From Flavobacteriales bacterium (lineage in GTDB: Bacteria; Bacteroidota; Bacteroidia; Flavobacteriales_F; PHOS-HE28), in assembly GCA_023382455.1 (NCBI GenBank), contig JAHDVX010000013.1, forward strand, positions 1-64,000: a stretch of DNA of 64,000 nt. The letters are read 5' to 3'. The notes beneath the pieces were generated by a model. It saw only the letters and a program-made list of their open reading frames with translations, ran no database searches and had not been told where the DNA came from. Positions within the stretch are counted from its first letter, which is position 1, and every line of letters begins with the position of its first letter. Below are positions 20,048-53,432 of this stretch, piece by piece. The translations under genes and the position numbers were made by a program.

Positions 20048-21328
20048 ATGATGGCCAAGACCGATTTCATTGAGGCGCTCCGCTGGCGCGGCATGCTGCA
20101 GGACAGCACGCCCGGCGTGGCGGAACATTTGCAAAAAGGCCCGGCCAGCGGCTACATCGGCTTCGACCCCACGGCGGATTCGCTGCACGTGGGCCACTTG
20201 GTGCAGGTGATGACGCTCACGCATTTCCAGCGCTGCGGCCACCGGCCCATCGCCTTGGTGGGCGGCGCCACCGGCATGGTGGGCGACCCCAGCGGCAAGC
20301 GCACCGAGCGCAACCTGCTGGATGAGGACGCGCTGCGCCACAACCAGGAATGCGTGCAGAAGCAACTGGAGCGCTTCCTCGATTTCAGCGGCACCAACGC
20401 TGCCCGCATGGTGAACAACTACGACTGGTTCAAGGACATGGGCTTCCTGCGCTTCATCCGCGAGGTGGGCAAGCACATCACCGTGAACTACATGATGGCC
20501 AAGGACAGTGTGAAGAGCCGCTTAGAGAGCGGGCTGTCCTTCACCGAGTTCAGCTACCAGCTGGTGCAGGGCTACGACTTCCACTGGCTGAACAAGCATG
20601 AGGGCTGCACCGTGCAAATGGGGGGCAGCGACCAGTGGGGCAACATCACCACGGGCACCGAGCTGATCCGCCGCATGGGCGGGGGCGAGGCCTACGCCGT
20701 CACCACGCAGCTGCTCACCAAGGCCGACGGCACCAAGTTCGGCAAGAGCGAGGGCGGCAACGTGTGGCTTGATGCAGCGCGCACCTCGCCGTACAAGTTC
20801 TACCAGTTCTGGCTGAACACCGCCGATGCCGACGCCGCGCGCATGGCCGCCATCTTCACCCCGTGGAGCCAAGCCGAGGTGGAGGCCTTGACGGAGGAAC
20901 ATGCCAAGGCCCCGCACCTGCGGCAGTTGCAGAAGGAGCTTGCGGCGCACATCACCACGCTGGTGCACGGCAAGGGTGAACTGGACGCGGCCATCCAGGC
21001 CAGCACCATCCTCTTCGGCAATGCGGCCGAAGGCTTAGGCACGCTCAGCGAGCGCCAATGGCTCGATGTGTTCGACGGCGTGCCGCAGGCGGAAGTGGCC
21101 CGCACCGCAATCGAGGCCGGCATCCCCATCGCGGACCTGCTGAGCGAGACCACGGGCTTCCTGCCCAGCAAGGGCGAGGCCCGGCGCGCGTTGAAGGAGA
21201 ACAGCATCAGCGTGAACAAGGCGAAGGTGGACGACGGCCGCACCGTGAACGCGTCCGACCTGATCAACGGCAAGTTCATCCTGCTGCAGCGCGGAAAGAA
21301 GAACTACTTTTTGGTGAAGGCGGGGTGA
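20048..21328 (+). CDS. tyrS: Tyrosine-tRNA ligase
   Basis: 426 residues, class Ic aminoacyl-tRNA synthetase of the TyrRS bacterial type. It charges tRNA-Tyr in the cytoplasm. The HIGH motif appears as HVGH (residues 47-50) and KMSKS as KFGKS (about 231-235), with the tyrosine-binding GGSDQWGN segment between. A C-terminal S4 RNA-binding domain ([16 protein letters not shown]) ends the protein. Two adjacent ATGs (20048 and 20051) are possible starts. Hairpins follow the stop. Confidence 0.96.
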
Positions 21329-21363
21329 CCGGCCTGGCGGGGCTTGGGCCCCGCGAATAGCAC

Positions 21364-21385
21364 GCGCACGGCTGGGGCCGTGCGC
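21364..21385 (+). terminator. Hairpin after tyrS
   Basis: A perfect 9-bp stem (GCGCACGGC / GCCGTGCGC) with a 4-nt loop, 35 bp after the tyrS stop. A second GC-rich hairpin (GCGCGGC / GCCGCGC) sits at 21416-21433. Neither is followed by a clear T-run, so they are terminator-like structures or copies of a palindromic intergenic repeat. Confidence 0.5.
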
Positions 21386-21468
21386 GAACTGAAGTATTAA
21401 TCCGGCTTTGCTGCTGCGCGGCCCCAGCCGCGCGGCACCTATTCGGTCGCCCCATGGCGACTCCCCCT

Positions 21469-21538
21469 TCACCCCACCAACAGATTGCAGCCCCTGAGGT
21501 CGCTGTGGTCGAAACGGCCGAGCACCTCGAAGCTTCCG
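21469..21538 (-). pseudogene. Detached copy of the 3' end of the LuxE-like gene
   Basis: 70 nt that match 22892-22961 (the end of the LuxE-like acyltransferase gene) with three mismatches. It translates on the minus strand to FEVLGRFDHSDLRGCNLLVG plus stop, identical at protein level to the intact gene. Similarity ends sharply upstream at GGAAGCTTC and downstream just after the stop. The DUF4143 ATPase gene lies between the two copies. Confidence 0.88.
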
Positions 21539-21608
21539 GTGCGGTCGAGCTTGGTGTGCGCATTGGGTCGAAGCTGGCGGTCGGGTCGGTGACCGGTGGT
21601 GCTTGGCA

Positions 21609-22796
21609 TCATTCCACCTGCTGGCCCAGCCAGCCGGGAAACTGCTGCCACGGCAGCGCCGTAACGCCATGGGGCAACGGCTGCTCCTTGGGGACACGGC
21701 AGACGAGCACACCGGCACTGCACCGGCCTTCGCCGGCCAAGGCACGGAAACGCCTGAGGCTTTCGGTGTGCTGCGCCTGCGGGGTGGCGGTCAGCTTGAT
21801 CTCGATCGGAATCAGGGTGCCTTTGCCCTGGATGATCAGGTCCACCTCCAGCCCGTCGTGCGAGCGCCAATACCAGAGGGCAGGCTTGCGGCCCTTGTTG
21901 GTGAAGGCCTTCAGCGCCTCGATCACCACCAGCCCCTCAAAGAGCGCCCTGCCCATGGCTCCGGCCAGGGCAGCCCCCGCGTCGGGTTGGCGGGTGAGGA
22001 AGCACACGATGGCCGGGTCCAGCACATACAGCTTGGGCGATTTGGTGATGCGCTTGCCGAGGTTGTTGAAGAAGGGCGGCAGCAGGTACAGGAGATAGGA
22101 GGCTTCAAGCAGGCCCGCCCATGCCCTGGCGGTGGGCACCGCGATGCCGACCTCGCGTGCGAATTCGCTGCCGTTGAAGCCCTGCGCATGGCGGGCGCAG
22201 GCCAGTGCCACGAATTGCTCGAAGGCACGCAGGTCGCGCACTTGCTGCAACTGGCGCACGTCGCGTTCCAAGTAGGTCTGTACATAAGCGCGCAGCCACA
22301 GGTCGCGTTTGGCCGGGTACAGGGCCGGCTCGGGATAGCAGCCGTTCCATAGCACCTGTTCCAGCGGCGGAGACTTCTTCGCAGAAAGTTCACCAACGCT
22401 GAACGGCAGTTGGTCCAATATGGCGATGCGCCCTGCAAGGGATTCACTGATGTCGCGCATGACATGGAATTGCTGCGAGCCGGTGAGCAGCCAGCGGCCA
22501 TTGTGGCGGCGTTCCTTGTCGATGCGCAACTTCAACGAGCCCAGCAGCCCGGGCACGTATTGGATCTCGTCCAAAATGACGGGCTGCCCGGCAAAGCGGT
22601 CCAGAAAACCCGCCGGGTCCTCGACCGCGAAGGAGCGTTCCACCGGATCATCGAAGGTGACGTAGGCCAGATCACCCCCGGTCTCGTGTTGCAGCAGGGT
22701 GGTCTTGCCCGCTTGGCGCGGACCAGTCACCAGCACGGCGGGGAATTGCTGCATCGCCCGGCGCAGGGTGGAGGAGATGTTGCGCTGGATATACAT
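21609..22796 (-). CDS. AAA family ATPase with DUF4143 domain
   Basis: 395 residues from the ATG at 22796; an upstream TTG would add seven residues. Walker A is GPRQAGKTT (about residues 25-33), Walker B-like is PVILDEIQYVP and sensor is LLTGSQQF. The C-terminal half is the DUF4143 winged-helix plus nuclease-like fold, with DGLEVDLIIQGKGTLIPIEIK giving a D...E-x-K constellation. These ATPases are widespread accessory genes of unclear function in bacteria and archaea, often behaving like mobile or toxin-antitoxin-like cargo. A 9-bp inverted repeat lies immediately before the start codon. The gene lies between an intact LuxE-like gene and a detached copy of its tail. Confidence 0.88.
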   Translation of the reverse strand: MYIQRNISSTLRRAMQQFPAVLVTGPRQAGKTTLLQHETGGDLAYVTFDDPVERSFAVEDPAGFLDRFAGQPVILDEIQYVPGLLGSLKLRIDKERRHNGRWLLTGSQQFHVMRDISESLAGRIAILDQLPFSVGELSAKKSPPLEQVLWNGCYPEPALYPAKRDLWLRAYVQTYLERDVRQLQQVRDLRAFEQFVALACARHAQGFNGSEFAREVGIAVPTARAWAGLLEASYLLYLLPPFFNNLGKRITKSPKLYVLDPAIVCFLTRQPDAGAALAGAMGRALFEGLVVIEALKAFTNKGRKPALWYWRSHDGLEVDLIIQGKGTLIPIEIKLTATPQAQHTESLRRFRALAGEGRCSAGVLVCRVPKEQPLPHGVTALPWQQFPGWLGQQVE

Positions 22797-22833
22797 TCTG
22801 ACAAATCTAATATTCAATCTTCATTTTGTCAGA
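22797..22833 (-). promoter_or_regulatory. Inverted repeat and -7 box at the ATPase start
   Basis: TCTGACAAA (22797-22805) and TTTGTCAGA (22825-22833) form a perfect 9-bp inverted repeat around an AT-rich 19-nt core. On the minus strand the proximal arm overlaps TAGATTTG, an exact match to the Bacteroidota -7 consensus TAnnTTTG, and the ATG follows within a few bases. It could be an operator for autoregulation with a nearly leaderless transcript. Confidence 0.5.
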
Positions 22834-22891
22834 GCGCTTTCAACCGGCGGCGATTGCGCCCCTGATATGCAATTGCCCGCTCGCCCCACGC

Positions 22892-22961
22892 TCACCCCAC
22901 CAACAGGTTGCACCCCCTGAGGTCGCTGTGGTCGAAGCGGCCGAGCACCTCGAAGCTTCCG
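22892..22961 (-). repeat. Tail of LuxE-like gene, intact-gene copy of the 70-nt repeat
   Basis: The 3' terminal 70 nt of the acyltransferase gene including the stop codon, matching 21469-21538 in the same orientation with three mismatches. The two copies are direct repeats about 1.42 kb apart and flank the DUF4143 ATPase gene. Confidence 0.88.
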
Positions 22962-23905
22962 TCGGCATGGACGCGCCCCAGGTCCTGCGTGCTGATGAAG
23001 GGGCAGCTGGCGATGTTGCAGAGGTCGATCACGTCCAGGCCGCCGGTGCGGCCGGGCGGCACCCGGGTAAAGGGGTCGTTCACGTCGCGGGCAAAGACCT
23101 TCATCCACGGTGGGCAGCGGTAGAGGCCACCACCTTGTGACCAGGCCTGGGAGAGCAGTTCCGTCATGCCGTATTCGCTGTGCACGGCGGGCACCCCGAA
23201 GGCTTCCTTGAGGATGCTGTGCAATTCCTCGCGCACCATCTCGGGGCGGCGCCCCTTCATGCCGCCGGTCTCCATGATCACCAGTTCGGGCAATGGCATG
23301 GGGTGCTTCTCCGCCAGGTCCAACAGGGCGAAAGGCACGCCGAAGAGCATGGTGCGGATGCCTTCCGCCTCGCTTTCCTTCAGAAGCGCGGCCAATCCGT
23401 CCAGGTCGTGCAGCCAGGTGCCGCTTTTCACGTCGCCACTTTGGGCGATCAGCTTTTCCACCATGTACACCAAGGAACTGCCGGGCCGCTCCAGGTAGGC
23501 GGGCAGCAGGGCCAGGATGCGCCAACGCGATGGACGGCCGTATTCCGCGCCGAAGGAGCTGAGGAAAGACCGCTCGTACAGCGCTGGCCACGGCACATGG
23601 TGCGTGCTGGTGATGCTGCCGGTAGTGCCGCTGCTGGTGAATTGCAGGTCGGACTCAATTCCTTCCAGCAGTACGCGGCGGTTGCGGAACTGCCCGATGG
23701 GCAGGAAGGGAATCTGCTCCACCTGTGCCACTTGTGCCACATCGATGCGAAGGGTGCGCAAGTATTCGCCATAGACCGGGTTGTGCGCGGCATGCAGGCG
23801 CAACAGTTCCAGCGCCAGGGCCTCGAACGCGGCTGGCCCGTCCACTTGGAAAGGCTTTTCCAGCAGGGCAGTTGGCACAATGGGACCGGACGGCGCGGCG
23901 TTCAT
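22892..23905 (-). CDS. LuxE-like acyl-protein synthetase / acyltransferase
   Basis: 337 residues starting at the ATG at 23905. It belongs to the adenylate-forming LuxE family, which activates acyl groups. Visible features are the nucleotide-binding FTSSGTTGS loop (about residue 91), ETGGMKGRR, HSEYGMTELLSQ (the A5-like motif) and the C-terminal GRFDHSDLRGCNLLVG. Flavobacterial members are of unknown substrate. The start codon is only 17 bp from that of the divergent lipoprotein gene. Its last 70 nt exist again at 21469-21538. Confidence 0.85.
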   Translation of the reverse strand: MNAAPSGPIVPTALLEKPFQVDGPAAFEALALELLRLHAAHNPVYGEYLRTLRIDVAQVAQVEQIPFLPIGQFRNRRVLLEGIESDLQFTSSGTTGSITSTHHVPWPALYERSFLSSFGAEYGRPSRWRILALLPAYLERPGSSLVYMVEKLIAQSGDVKSGTWLHDLDGLAALLKESEAEGIRTMLFGVPFALLDLAEKHPMPLPELVIMETGGMKGRRPEMVREELHSILKEAFGVPAVHSEYGMTELLSQAWSQGGGLYRCPPWMKVFARDVNDPFTRVPPGRTGGLDVIDLCNIASCPFISTQDLGRVHADGSFEVLGRFDHSDLRGCNLLVG

Positions 23906-27916: not shown

Positions 27917-28285
27917 ATGACCAAGAAGAAGCAACTGGTCAACGGCGCCGTGCAGGAGCGCGACTTCTTCCGCGATGTGATGGACGTGGTGCGCCAGGTG
28001 CCCAAGGGCCGCGTCACCAGCTACGGGGCCATTGCCAAGTACCTCGGCGCGCCGCGCAGCGCCCGCATCGTGGGCTGGTGCATGAACAACGCGCATGCAG
28101 CGCAGCCGCCGGTGCCGGCGCAGCGCGTGGTGAACCGCATCGGCCTGCTCACCGGCAAGCACCACTTCACCACGCCCACGCAAATGGAGGAACTGCTGGC
28201 GAAGGAAGGCGTGCAGGTGAAGAAGGACCAAGTGGTGGACTTCGCCAGGAAGTTCTGGGACCCGGCGGTGGAGTTGGGGTTCTGA
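27917..28285 (+). CDS. Alkyltransferase-like protein (MGMT fold, no acceptor Cys)
   Basis: 122 residues. The MGMT DNA-binding domain is clear: VMDVVRQVPKGRVTSYGAIAKYLGAPRSARIVGWCMNN, followed by PVPAQRVVNRIGLL. The PCHR active site is PAQR here, so the alkyl-accepting Cys is absent. By family knowledge this is an ATL protein that binds O6-alkylguanine and flags it for nucleotide excision repair rather than repairing it. The last 69 nt (28217-28285) recur as detached copies at 29059-29127 and 29785-29856. Confidence 0.87.
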   Translation: MTKKKQLVNGAVQERDFFRDVMDVVRQVPKGRVTSYGAIAKYLGAPRSARIVGWCMNNAHAAQPPVPAQRVVNRIGLLTGKHHFTTPTQMEELLAKEGVQVKKDQVVDFARKFWDPAVELGF

Positions 28286-28303
28286 AGTACAACCGATGGA
28301 ACG

Positions 28304-29041
28304 ATGAGATTCCCGACTTCCGTGGTGATCGCCCTCGGGTGTGCTTCGGCCTTTGCACAAGCGGCGCCCCAGCTACCGATGGACCGCTATGATGTCCACT
28401 TCGGGGAGCAAGAGGGTGAATACTACTTCTACATCGCGCCGGACAGCCTTACATCGCATGCTGCATGGCATCCCAGGGATACGGCGATGTGGGCGTTTGA
28501 CCTGTACCTCTTCGACAACTACGCCGAGGCGGCGTATGAGCAGTACGCCTGGGAGGACCTGTTGCCCGATACCGCACGGGTCCGGTCGGCCTTTCAGCAC
28601 GCCCTGGGGAAGGACACGGCCTTTGCCAAACTGTACCAACGGTCATTCCGTTCCGGCAGTACCTCGACCGTCCTTATCGACACGCTGATGCGGATCGCTG
28701 CACGATTCTATTACCTGCATCGCACGGGCACCACCGGGCTAGACCTGCATCTCTGCACGGGGATCAATCGAGTAAAGGAACTGGCGCACGATGGGGATGG
28801 ACCCTATTACGCCGCATTCTGTTACCAGGCCATCCGGGACATGGATGACCCCTATCTATATTACCGCAAGGCCAAGGAAGCCCTGCCTGATTCATTATAC
28901 AGCGACATGCCGACGGACCGGGTCTTGGCTGCGGAACAGGGCCTTTACGACCTGATCGCCGAAGACATCGGATTGCGCGAGTTTCTGCTGGCCGAATATG
29001 CCCGGAAAGAACCATGGCTCTGCTTCCGGTTGGCCCGATAG
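28304..29041 (+). CDS. Secreted protein of unknown function (cargo behind ATL gene)
   Basis: 245 residues with a signal peptide (VVIALGCASAFAQA). The mature part is mostly alpha-helical, rich in Tyr and Asp, with helix-turn pairs like GPYYAAFCYQAIRDMDDPYLYYRKAKEALPDS that resemble tetratricopeptide-like packing. No family recognised. It starts 18 bp after the ATL stop and is followed at 29059 by a degenerate copy of the ATL 3' end, so it lies between two ATL tails. Confidence 0.65.
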   Translation: MRFPTSVVIALGCASAFAQAAPQLPMDRYDVHFGEQEGEYYFYIAPDSLTSHAAWHPRDTAMWAFDLYLFDNYAEAAYEQYAWEDLLPDTARVRSAFQHALGKDTAFAKLYQRSFRSGSTSTVLIDTLMRIAARFYYLHRTGTTGLDLHLCTGINRVKELAHDGDGPYYAAFCYQAIRDMDDPYLYYRKAKEALPDSLYSDMPTDRVLAAEQGLYDLIAEDIGLREFLLAEYARKEPWLCFRLAR

Positions 29042-29058
29042 AGTGGTGTGAGGGGTTC

Positions 29059-29127
29059 GTAAGGAACGATCAAGTACCGAACCCTGTCAGGAAGTTCCGG
29101 GATCGATTGGTGGAACTGGGGTTTTGA
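29059..29127 (+). pseudogene. Second, degenerate copy of the ATL gene tail
   Basis: Reads VRNDQVPNPVRKFRDRLVELGF plus stop when split into short segments; 13 of 22 residues match the ATL end at 28217-28285, with no gaps and the stop in the same place. Weak similarity may begin earlier, at about 29050. It has no start codon or upstream coding part. Confidence 0.8.
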
Positions 29128-29131
29128 ACCA

Positions 29132-29479
29132 TCAGCGGAGCTGGTCCCTGATCTCGGCCAGCTGTTCACGCGCCCCAGGCAGCACACGCTCTACGGTCAG
29201 CCATACCGCGATCTTGTCAATGCCCATGTAGTCGTGCACGAGCTTGTCGCGCATCCCGGCGATCTTCTTCCAAGGCATGTCCGGATGGCTTTCGCGCAAC
29301 GAAGTGGAAAGGCGCTTGACCGCTTCGCCCATCACCATGAAGTTGCGGATCACGCCATCCTGCACCAAGCGGTTGTCCAGAAAACCGTGCATATCCATGC
29401 CCCGGGTATAGGACAAGACTTGATCGATGGCGTCAATAATGTCGTCCAACAACACGAGGTCGGAACGTTCACTGGTCAT
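29132..29479 (-). CDS. hepT: HEPN (DUF86, HepT-like) toxin of a MNT/HEPN module
   Basis: 115 residues, all-helical. The HEPN RNase motif RX4HXY is present as RDKLVHDY (about residues 78-85). In established HepT/MntA pairs this protein is the toxin, an RNase or AMPylation target, and the nucleotidyltransferase neutralises it by AMPylating the motif Tyr. It overlaps the mntA-like gene by ATGA. The stop codon lies 4 bp from the second ATL tail copy. Confidence 0.88.
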   Translation of the reverse strand: MTSERSDLVLLDDIIDAIDQVLSYTRGMDMHGFLDNRLVQDGVIRNFMVMGEAVKRLSTSLRESHPDMPWKKIAGMRDKLVHDYMGIDKIAVWLTVERVLPGAREQLAEIRDQLR

Positions 29480-29766
29480 GCTTGTGCGTCAATGCGCACA
29501 AGGTCGCGCGTGATGAATGGCCGAAGACGGGGGTTCACAGCCCGGTCGGTGACCAGATCAACGGCGAAGCCCAACTTTTCGCTCAATTCCTGCTCAATCC
29601 CGACCAATTCCAAGAAATCCACTTGGGCGGAAAGATCCACCAGGAGATCAAGGTCGCTGTCCGCACGGTGGTCGCCGCGTGCGCGCGATCCGAAGATGGC
29701 GATCAACTTCGGCCCAAAGGGCGCCAAGGTTTCGCGAACCACCTGTTGTTGTTTCAGGTCGAGCAT
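29476..29766 (-). CDS. mntA: MNT-type nucleotidyltransferase antitoxin
   Basis: 96 residues. The minimal nucleotidyltransferase motif is AIFGSRARGDHRADSDLDLLVD (GS...DxD, about residues 25-43), which is the catalytic site that AMPylates the HEPN partner. The C-terminal half gives a third acidic strand (VDLVTD). First gene of the two-gene module; it lies 18 bp from the third ATL tail copy. Confidence 0.88.
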   Translation of the reverse strand: MLDLKQQQVVRETLAPFGPKLIAIFGSRARGDHRADSDLDLLVDLSAQVDFLELVGIEQELSEKLGFAVDLVTDRAVNPRLRPFITRDLVRIDAQA

Positions 29767-29784
29767 GTTTCAAAGGTAAGGGAG

Positions 29785-29856
29785 ATGGCGAAGAAGGAAC
29801 AGGTGGTGTACTTCGTGAAGAAGTTCTGGGACCCGTCGGTGGAGCTGGGGTTTTGA
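29785..29856 (+). pseudogene. Third copy of the ATL gene tail
   Basis: Reads MAKKEQVVYFVKKFWDPSVELGF plus stop (in short segments). Over the last 69 nt it differs from the intact ATL end at ten positions, several of them silent (TTG/CTG, TTC/TTT), so it looks like the tail of a related allele rather than a fresh copy. After the stop a few more bases (A-A/G-TAC) also match. There is no upstream coding sequence. Confidence 0.85.
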
Positions 29857-29955
29857 AATACCCTGACCTCCAAGCCCCGAACCCGGGCTTCCAGGCAAGC
29901 CGGGATCAGCTGTCCCACCCCTGATGTTCCTCAGTTCCGGCACCTTTTCATGCGG

Positions 29956-50999: not shown

Positions 51000-53432
51000 A
51001 TGAAGCAGGCCAAACTCCGCCTTGTCCCGTGCTGGCTTCTCGCATGGACCTTCCTTTCAGCCAATGCCCAGCAGTGGCTGCCCTTGGGGCCTAACGACGG
51101 CAACTGGGCTTCCACCGGACGAACCGACTTCTTTTCCCTGAAGCTGGATGCTGGCGGCAACCCGGTATTGGCCTTTCAGGATTGGGCCAGCGGCAGGGCC
51201 ATGGTGAGGCGCTGGGACGGCAGCACGTGGGGTTTCGTGGGCGGCCCGGCCATTTCGGCGGGCTATGCCTATTCCCCGAGCTTGGCCCTGGATGCATCCG
51301 GCAACCCGGTCGTGGTCTATGAAGATGTGGAGAACGATGGGAAGGCCACGGTGATGCGCTGGGACGGCAGCAGCTGGGCCGCGGTAGGCAGCCCCGGTTT
51401 CTCGGCGGGCAATGCCTATTACATCAGCTTGGCCTTGGACGCCTCCGGCAACCCGGTGGTGGCCTATGGAGATGTGGAGAACGATGGGAAGGCGACGGTG
51501 ATGCGCTGGGATGGCAACAGTTGGAACCCGGTGGGCAGCCCGGGCTTCTCGGAGGGGTATGTCAACTCTCTGAGGTTGGCCTTGGATGCGTCCGGCAATC
51601 CCGTCGTGGCCTTTACGGGTGCGACCAATGATGGCAAGGTCACGGTGATGCGCTGGGACGGTAGCAATTGGAACCCTGTGGGCGGCCCGGGCATCTCGGC
51701 TGGCCATGCCTCCGATCCCAGCTTGGCCTTGGATGCGTCCGGCAACCCGGTGGTGGCCTATCGTGATGATGCCAACGGACATAAGGGCACGGTGATGCGA
51801 TGGAATGGCAGCAGCTGGTCCTCCGTGGGCAGCCCGGGCTTCTCGGTGGACTGGGTCAACTACATCAGCTTGTCCCTGGATGCTGGCGGCAACCCGGTGG
51901 TGGCCTATAATGACCACTTCTACATGAATAAGGCCACTGTGATGCGCTGGGACGGCAGCAGCTGGAATTCCATAGGTGACCCGGGCTTCATGGCGATCGG
52001 GAGTGAGGCCGGCCTCAGCTTGGTTATGGACGTGTCCGGCAACCCGGTGTTGGCCGTTCAGGCCGCGGCCAACGAAGACAAGGCCACCGTGATGCGCTGG
52101 GACGGCAGCAGCTGGAGTCCGGTGGGCGACGTAGGCTTCCCGGCGGGCTGGCGCTATTGCCCCAGTTTGGCCTTGGACGCATCCGGCAACCCGGTGGTGG
52201 CCTATCAGGATGAGGCCAACGGGCAGAGGGCCACGGTGATGCGCTGGGACGGCAGCAATTGGAGCCCCGTGGGCAGCCCGGGCTTCTCGACGGCCTGGGT
52301 TGGCAGCCCCAGCTTGGCCCTGGACGCAACCGGCAATCCCGTGGTGGCCTATGTGGATTGGGCCACCAACGAAAGGATTACGGTGATGCGCTGGGACGGC
52401 AGCAACTGGGGCCCTGTAGGGAGTCCTGGCTTCTCGATGGGCTCTGCCTATTCCCCCAGCTTGGCCTTGGATGCATCGGGCAACCCGGTGGTGGCCTTTA
52501 CGAATATCTGGACCATCGGGGGGGCGGTGATGCGTTGGGACGGCAACAACTGGAATCTCTTGGGTGGCCCGACCATCTCAACTTCTCCGGTCCATGCCCC
52601 CAGCTTGGCCTTGGACGCGTCCGGTACCCCGGTGGTGGCCTATGCGGATGGAGCCTACGGCCAGAGGGCCACGGTGATACGCTGGGACGGCAGCAACTGG
52701 AGCCCCGTGGGCGGCCCAGGTTTCTCCGTGGGCGGGACAGCATATACCAGCTTGGCCTTGGACTCCTTGGGTAACCCGGTTGTGGCCTTTTATGATGGGG
52801 CCAATGGTGGCAGGGCCACGGTGATGCGCTGGGATGGCAGCAGTTGGAACCCGGTGGGCAGCCCGGGCTTCTCGGCTGGCGAGGCCAAATACACCAGCTT
52901 GGCCTTGGACACTTCCGGCAATCCGGTGGTGGCCTATCGGGATGGGGCCGCTTGGAACAGGGTCACGGTGATGCGGTGGGATGGCAGCAGCTGGAACCCC
53001 GTGGGCGATCCGGGCTTTTCTACACCCATAAGTCCCTACTTCACCGGAAGTGATTGGCTGAAGCTGGATGCCGATGGCAATATGGTCGTGGCCTATGTCA
53101 GCGGTTACGGTTATGTCAAACGCTATTCGGGGCAGGAGGTCGGCATCCAGCCACAAAGCGGCCGTGAAGGCTTTTCCTTGGCCGTGCATCCCAATCCGAC
53201 GGCAGGCCGGTTCACCATCGGGATCGAAGGCTTGCCCGCAACGTGCCCCAGCGCCACGATCGCCGTGTTCGATGCCGCCGGAAAGCTCATCCACGGGGAG
53301 GACCTGTCCTTGGCCAATGGAAAGGGGATGCATGAACTGGACCTCACCGGCCGCATGCGGCAGGGCTTGTATGCCGTGCGCGTCACGGCCGGCGACCTGC
53401 ATCTGGTCCGGCGCTTGTGCGTGGCTTGGTAG
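51000..53432 (+). CDS. T9SS type A secreted protein with 14 tandem repeats
   Basis: 810 residues. A signal peptide (LVPCWLLAWTFLSANAQ) is followed by 14 repeats of about 49 residues, each with SLALDASGNPVVAY and ATVMRWDGSSWNPVG cores. They probably form one or two beta-propellers. The C-terminus (VHPNPTAGRFTIGI, VFDAAGKLIHGE, GLYAVRVTAG) is a type A sorting domain. Exported to the surface or medium; ligand unknown. The repeats stay 70-90% alike, which implies ongoing homogenisation. Confidence 0.85.
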   Translation: MKQAKLRLVPCWLLAWTFLSANAQQWLPLGPNDGNWASTGRTDFFSLKLDAGGNPVLAFQDWASGRAMVRRWDGSTWGFVGGPAISAGYAYSPSLALDASGNPVVVYEDVENDGKATVMRWDGSSWAAVGSPGFSAGNAYYISLALDASGNPVVAYGDVENDGKATVMRWDGNSWNPVGSPGFSEGYVNSLRLALDASGNPVVAFTGATNDGKVTVMRWDGSNWNPVGGPGISAGHASDPSLALDASGNPVVAYRDDANGHKGTVMRWNGSSWSSVGSPGFSVDWVNYISLSLDAGGNPVVAYNDHFYMNKATVMRWDGSSWNSIGDPGFMAIGSEAGLSLVMDVSGNPVLAVQAAANEDKATVMRWDGSSWSPVGDVGFPAGWRYCPSLALDASGNPVVAYQDEANGQRATVMRWDGSNWSPVGSPGFSTAWVGSPSLALDATGNPVVAYVDWATNERITVMRWDGSNWGPVGSPGFSMGSAYSPSLALDASGNPVVAFTNIWTIGGAVMRWDGNNWNLLGGPTISTSPVHAPSLALDASGTPVVAYADGAYGQRATVIRWDGSNWSPVGGPGFSVGGTAYTSLALDSLGNPVVAFYDGANGGRATVMRWDGSSWNPVGSPGFSAGEAKYTSLALDTSGNPVVAYRDGAAWNRVTVMRWDGSSWNPVGDPGFSTPISPYFTGSDWLKLDADGNMVVAYVSGYGYVKRYSGQEVGIQPQSGREGFSLAVHPNPTAGRFTIGIEGLPATCPSATIAVFDAAGKLIHGEDLSLANGKGMHELDLTGRMRQGLYAVRVTAGDLHLVRRLCVAW

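Follow-up and report, generated by a model that had tools for sequence, protein, structure and literature searches.

How did a single ATPase gene come to lie between the intact 3′ end of a LuxE-like gene (luxE) and a detached copy of that same gene end? The locus is part of the window, by which we mean the whole stretch of 64,000 nucleotides of Flavobacteriales DNA that was analyzed, and it comprises the following features, with the evidence for each in brackets.

20048-21328, plus strand: tyrS, tyrosine--tRNA ligase (NCBIfam TIGR00234, 2.3e-119; Pfam; synteny)
21469-21538, minus strand: detached luxE tail, a second copy of the gene's final 70 nt with its stop codon (direct repeat, 67/70; encodes GSFEVLGRFDHSDLRGCNLLVG and a stop)
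21539-21608, no strand: unique spacer from the ATPase stop codon to the detached tail (sequence; not kept in foreign homologs)
21609-22796, minus strand: the inserted gene, an AAA_14 + DUF4143 ATPase of PADLOC class PDC-S01 (Pfam; PADLOC, 6e-99; predicted model; motifs; foreign homologs)
22797-22833, minus strand: inverted repeat TCTGACAAA...TTTTGTCAGA right before the ATG (folds, z = -4.0; similar dyad in other phyla)
22834-22891, no strand: spacer from the dyad to the luxE stop codon (sequence)
22892-22961, minus strand: attached tail of luxE, partner of the detached copy (direct repeat and self-comparison)
22892-23905, minus strand: LuxE-like gene, intact, acyl-protein synthetase family (Pfam PF04443, 1.1e-6; present in 90 of 98 relatives)

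Two copies of the luxE tail enclose one gene

An earlier note on this DNA had claimed that the last 70 nt of luxE are repeated in the same orientation, with three mismatches and with the stop codon in both copies, and a repeat search of the window recovered exactly these two intervals as a direct repeat with 67 of 70 nucleotides identical. Because the pair has an E-value of 3.7e-25 when the window is compared with itself, it is not a product of chance. Read on the minus strand, both tails give GSFEVLGRFDHSDLRGCNLLVG followed by a stop codon, and each of the three mismatches falls on a third codon position and is synonymous. The similarity does end abruptly on both sides of the 70 nt, as had been stated, and the DUF4143 ATPase gene said to lie alone between the tails proved to be the sole gene there (DUF4143 at 1e-40, AAA_14 at 3e-25); no integrase or recombinase gene was found within the insert, nor did Rfam give a match within it. 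The detached tail sits between the ATPase gene and tyrS; synteny shows tyrS and the LuxE-like gene to be convergent in relatives. The attached and detached tails are about equally close to relatives. Between tyrS and the detached tail lies a large GC-rich hairpin (21345-21454), of which a stretch of ~50 nt is found again with 90% identity at G000:C5:7562-7612 and possibly belongs to a repetitive element.

The enclosed gene is of foreign origin

Judged by its closest relatives, the window ATPase is foreign, i.e. horizontally acquired, because its best matches (74-81% identical), when bacterial and archaeal genomes were scanned, fall in Proteobacteria and Geobacter-type genomes, including Pseudomonadales, Betaproteobacteria, Geobacter, Trichlorobacter and others, many of them MAGs. 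Congeneric DUF4143 proteins are no more than ~43% identical to it, except for one in G032 at 78%. Similarity to the foreign homologs at the DNA level starts at ~22835 and stops near the ATPase stop codon, and the conserved unit therefore consists of the dyad and the ORF only. Homologous genes in other phyla are preceded at the same position by a dyad of this type, and that of the window (22797-22833) is probably the promoter or operator of the ATPase unit. That the dyad directly precedes the ATG in several phyla (the window and loci L365-L372) is suggestive of a leaderless, self-regulated promoter. No long flanking repeats were found at the proteobacterial homologs' own sites. The ATG of the ATPase is at 22796, and the translations that were used began at 22799, giving one extra N-terminal residue.

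The predicted model of the protein is confident, with a mean pLDDT of 93, and over roughly its first 270 residues it is similar to archaeal/STAND-type ATPases (2qen and 2fna, Z of 16.5 and 15.6), the structural matches spanning mainly residues 1-306; a sequence search of the PDB found no relative. Both the Walker residues and a C-terminal ExD...ExK motif are invariant in an alignment of 40 homologs, and in the model this motif lies on adjacent strands that are followed by a helix. Such an arrangement, with the motif on neighboring strands and a helix after it, is the core topology of PD-(D/E)XK proteins. The C-terminal domain is accordingly a putative PD-(D/E)XK-type nuclease, an assignment based on the motif, the predicted secondary structure and the literature, since the structural matches are largely confined to the ATPase portion. 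By its PADLOC class, the window ATPase is a putative phage-defense candidate. It resembles PDC-S01 both in its match (6e-99) and in combining an ATPase with the ExD...ExK motif of that class (PMC12988326). PDC-S01 has been described as the fourth most common defense system across prokaryotes, transferred across domains and yet uncharacterized, in which one protein joins an ATPase to a domain of the PD-(D/E)XK superfamily, and experimental validation is pending for most PDC-type candidates (PMC12988326). Insertion scars like those seen at the window gene are not mentioned for PDC-S01 in the published accounts consulted.

Related genomes carry the site without the ATPase

The arrangement without the insert is common in the genus. 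Among the 23 congeneric loci with tyrS and luxE both in view, the two genes face each other in 19, with their ends 8-215 nt apart (measured between the ends of protein matches); the other four gaps are 392-836 nt long, and one of these contains an IS200-type transposase gene. The ATPase is absent from between tyrS and luxE in all 23, and the 19 closely spaced loci have a single luxE tail, a comparison made at the level of the genus rather than of the strain. It had been proposed that an empty site, with tyrS directly facing luxE, would define the inserted segment exactly; the empty site was indeed found at genus level (19/23), which places the limits of the insert approximately. Close facing of tyrS and luxE is well supported as the likely state before insertion, again for the genus and not for the strain. 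In the nearest species, G017 and G032, rearrangement downstream of luxE (G017:C134, L066; G032:C247, L067) has abolished its adjacency to tyrS, luxE in G017 adjoining a gene that was read as frr, and the luxE 3′ end is therefore also a rearrangement breakpoint.

Relatives that lack the ATPase and nevertheless possess both tails were the finding that the earlier note had singled out as adverse. Two ATPase-free relatives do possess an additional stretch resembling the luxE tail, in each case with other cargo in between: in G043, antitoxin-like ORFs and Fic/Doc lie between luxE and a copy of its tail, and in G029, a small ORF and a GNAT gene lie between luxE and a short tail-like copy. These copies look like further insertions at the luxE end and do no serious damage to the insertion reading. 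A double luxE tail without cargo was not found among the relatives surveyed.

Flanking repeats recur at other genes and with other cargo

Direct repeats spanning the gene were sought at a further 61 DUF4143 genes from the genus, with 135 other ORFs from the same loci as controls. Strong flanking repeats were present at 23 of the DUF4143 genes and at two of the control ORFs (p = 1.3e-11). Because about 13 of these 23 genes have palindromes on both sides, several of them being orthologous, the cleaner figure is that for long non-palindromic repeats, which flank 10/61 DUF4143 genes as against 2/135 controls (p = 1.8e-4). Inspection revealed that the non-palindromic repeats are mostly the ends of neighboring genes, namely those of mfd (147 nt), nuoF (72 nt), an SRPBCC-like gene (63 nt), an efflux gene (53-66 nt) and valS (38 nt). 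Besides these ends, the head of hemW (101 nt), one intergenic stretch and some less certain cases are duplicated. Of the genes listed, nuoF was named by Pfam and the others by our reading of the sequences. The DUF4143 gene may be oriented either way relative to the duplicated gene, and no target sequence shared among the duplicated gene ends was seen. Across the phylum, flanking repeats were found at 6 of 30 DUF4143 genes, a lower rate than in the genus.

The same scars accompany other cargo. PIN genes have flanking repeats in 6 of 30 cases and Fic genes, not every one of which is a toxin-antitoxin gene, in 4 of 29; luxE, which served as a core-gene control, has them in 0 of 28. A repeated nuoF tail accompanies a DUF4143 gene in G027 and a PIN gene in G031. 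Several genomes have detached mfd tails, some with open frames kept across 95-100 codons, in the vicinity of PIN, HTH or DNA methyltransferase genes. This recurrence at defense-like and toxin-antitoxin genes points to a common route by which they may spread. The mfd end in G019 (C1:1-8000, L348) displays two detached mfd tails together with PIN genes, a RhuM-like ORF, a C-5 cytosine methyltransferase and a large ATPase-like ORF.

A second example lies within the window itself, at an MGMT-like gene:

28216-28290, plus strand: attached tail of the MGMT-like gene (27917-28285) (self-comparison, 75 nt, 85%; Pfam PF01035)
29091-29127, plus strand: short detached copy of the MGMT tail, RKFRDRLVELGF and a stop (self-comparison)
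29132-29766, minus strand: HepT-like and MNT nucleotidyltransferase genes between tail copies (Pfam PF01934, PF01909)
29787-29861, plus strand: long detached copy of the MGMT tail, in frame with its stop (self-comparison, 85% identical)

Between the tail copies of this locus (27917-29861) are an unknown ORF (28304-29041) and the HepT/MNT module. In several relatives mrp closely follows the MGMT-like gene, and in G017 HepT/MNT directly follows it. The simplest reading is that of two successive insertions at one gene end. Self-comparison of the window also revealed long tandem repeats at 51144-53020 and 1-936, with units of ~146 nt and a 468-nt pair.

Origin of the duplicated gene end

Two copies of the tail, a near-empty site in relatives, a foreign ATPase and recurrence with other genes and other cargo are the direct observations that bear on a one-gene insertion. 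We consider it probable that a PDC-S01 gene inserted by itself at the luxE 3′ end with a 70-bp target duplication. A unit made up of the dyad and the AAA_14/DUF4143 ORF, ~1.23 kb long with short spacers, would have entered at this end, doubling the last 70 bp of luxE and leaving the detached tail on the tyrS side, and luxE would have stayed intact because the insertion duplicated those 70 bp. We infer that the duplication was made in the insertion event itself. It would have been the work of host repair, which either filled in widely staggered nicks or switched templates, rather than of an encoded integrase; host repair is preferred as the agent because cargo without a DNA nuclease exhibits the same scars. 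The preference for gene ends would then reflect survival, insertions gathering there without target specificity because a duplication of 30-170 bp at a gene end keeps the gene whole, and the cargo would persist as a selfish or a defensive element.

Several points weigh against target duplication. The luxE mismatches, all synonymous though few in number, fit an allelic origin of one tail better than unconstrained decay; about half of the strong DUF4143 repeats are palindromes, a different pattern; the proteobacterial ATPase genes lack repeats of this sort where they stand; and the empty site is known at genus level only, G017 and G032 being rearranged at luxE.

The synonymous differences count in favor of homology-facilitated illegitimate recombination, in which DNA of another strain, already carrying luxE followed by the ATPase, recombines homologously within the resident luxE while its far end joins illegitimately inside the resident tail. 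The attached tail would then come from the donor and the detached tail from the resident, much as the mobile ORFs of fungal mitochondria do it. The detached mfd tails that remain open over 95-100 codons agree with this history as well. When tail pairs were pooled, 36 synonymous and 56 non-synonymous codons were counted, with a mild third-position excess, and these counts do not decide between decay and allelic origin. The similar closeness of the two luxE tails to relatives lends such recombination no support and is neutral at luxE, while most comparisons at the MGMT locus put the attached tail at least as close to relatives as the detached tail; moreover, an earlier insertion beside the donor luxE would still be required. 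All told, we think this origin, the main rival to target duplication, unlikely. A foreign attached tail was rejected as a general rule, since relatedness did not separate attached from detached tails.

It is less likely still, and in our view distinctly improbable, that the ATPase gene is an element of homing or transposon type, with the duplication caused by its own PD-(D/E)XK domain when this cuts the target. The invariance of the ExD...ExK motif would be consistent with such a role, as would the existence of one DUF4143 subfamily in the form of palindrome-gene-palindrome units of ~1.27 kb with differing flanks; however, PIN, Fic and HepT/MNT genes, which lack such a DNA nuclease, show the same tail duplications, and the duplicated gene ends have no evident target sequence in common.

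Many integrative elements are bordered by a direct repeat at the 3′ end of a gene that is left intact. The luxE locus has this appearance, and several relatives carry other cargo at the luxE end, which would be expected if that end were an attachment site, the two tails attL and attR, and the insert an integrase-borne element reduced to one gene. Yet the insert holds no integrase, and the ends duplicated at other DUF4143 genes are unrelated and include gene heads. Given the lack of an integrase and the diversity of targets, we discarded att sites as a very remote explanation. Finally, a partial tandem duplication of luxE with later, unrelated entry of the ATPase between the copies, which nothing in the two copies alone excludes, has next to no likelihood in view of the want of cargo-free double tails among the relatives and the association of tail copies with mobile cargo across the genus.

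Relation to known systems

Insertion with long target duplication has been described for restriction-modification genes of Helicobacter pylori (Nobusato et al. 2000, as described in PMC1643837 and PMC3031569). The likeness extends to a selfish or defense-type gene, long and variable direct repeats derived from target DNA, the absence of a transposase and a near-empty, one-copy site in relatives. Both the flanking direct repeats and the one-copy site in relatives are present at luxE. The cases described here differ in their cargo, which is PDC-S01 at luxE and PIN, Fic or HepT/MNT elsewhere in the genus, in that the repeats are found mainly at the ends of core genes, and in that one gene end can bear several insertions in layers.

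Mobile ORFs of fungal mitochondria, such as that at atp6 of Allomyces, duplicate the C-terminus of their host gene (PMC3630166). As at luxE, a single inserted gene adjoins the 3′ end of its host gene, which remains intact, with the displaced C-terminal copy downstream; in the fungal case, however, the attached end is foreign, the displaced end is native and a homing endonuclease is carried (PMC3630166), whereas the luxE tails are about equally close to relatives. In Microcystis, a toxin-antitoxin module beside MaOC1 is likewise bordered by long direct repeats, of 152 bp, but the first of these starts 14 bp past the stop codon of the neighboring gene and is thus no copy of a gene end (PMC7935541). 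Within the literature consulted, three features appear to be new, namely PDC-S01 as cargo, recurrence at gene ends throughout the genus and layering at one end.

Scars of this kind offer a means of studying, from sequence, how single genes and toxin-antitoxin modules gain entry to genomes with neither a transposase nor an integrase, and they bear on why such genes accumulate at the ends of core genes. Layered tail copies allow insertions to be ordered in time, and the many natural replicates make the mechanism of long-target-duplication insertion testable. They also call for caution, in that genes moving in this way may look defense-associated merely through shared insertion sites.

Palindrome-bounded DUF4143 units

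Another form of DUF4143 unit is bounded by palindromes, at which similarity ends, the flanks beyond them being different. Some such genes may therefore be mobile elements themselves. It is conceivable, though doubtful, that PDC-S01 genes are mobile elements of one gene each, autonomous in that insertion is driven by the ATPase/PD-(D/E)XK protein they encode, one subfamily being palindrome-ended and others duplicating gene ends; if so, one of the commonest "defense candidates" would be first and foremost a selfish mobile gene. Units of ~1.27 kb with the same ~37-nt palindrome at both ends occur in several contexts (L142-L147, L151). A further group (L157, L162, L168, L170, L178, L179, L182) has palindromes on both sides with the core CGCCACG.CGTGGCG, the outer arms of which vary and yet stay complementary.
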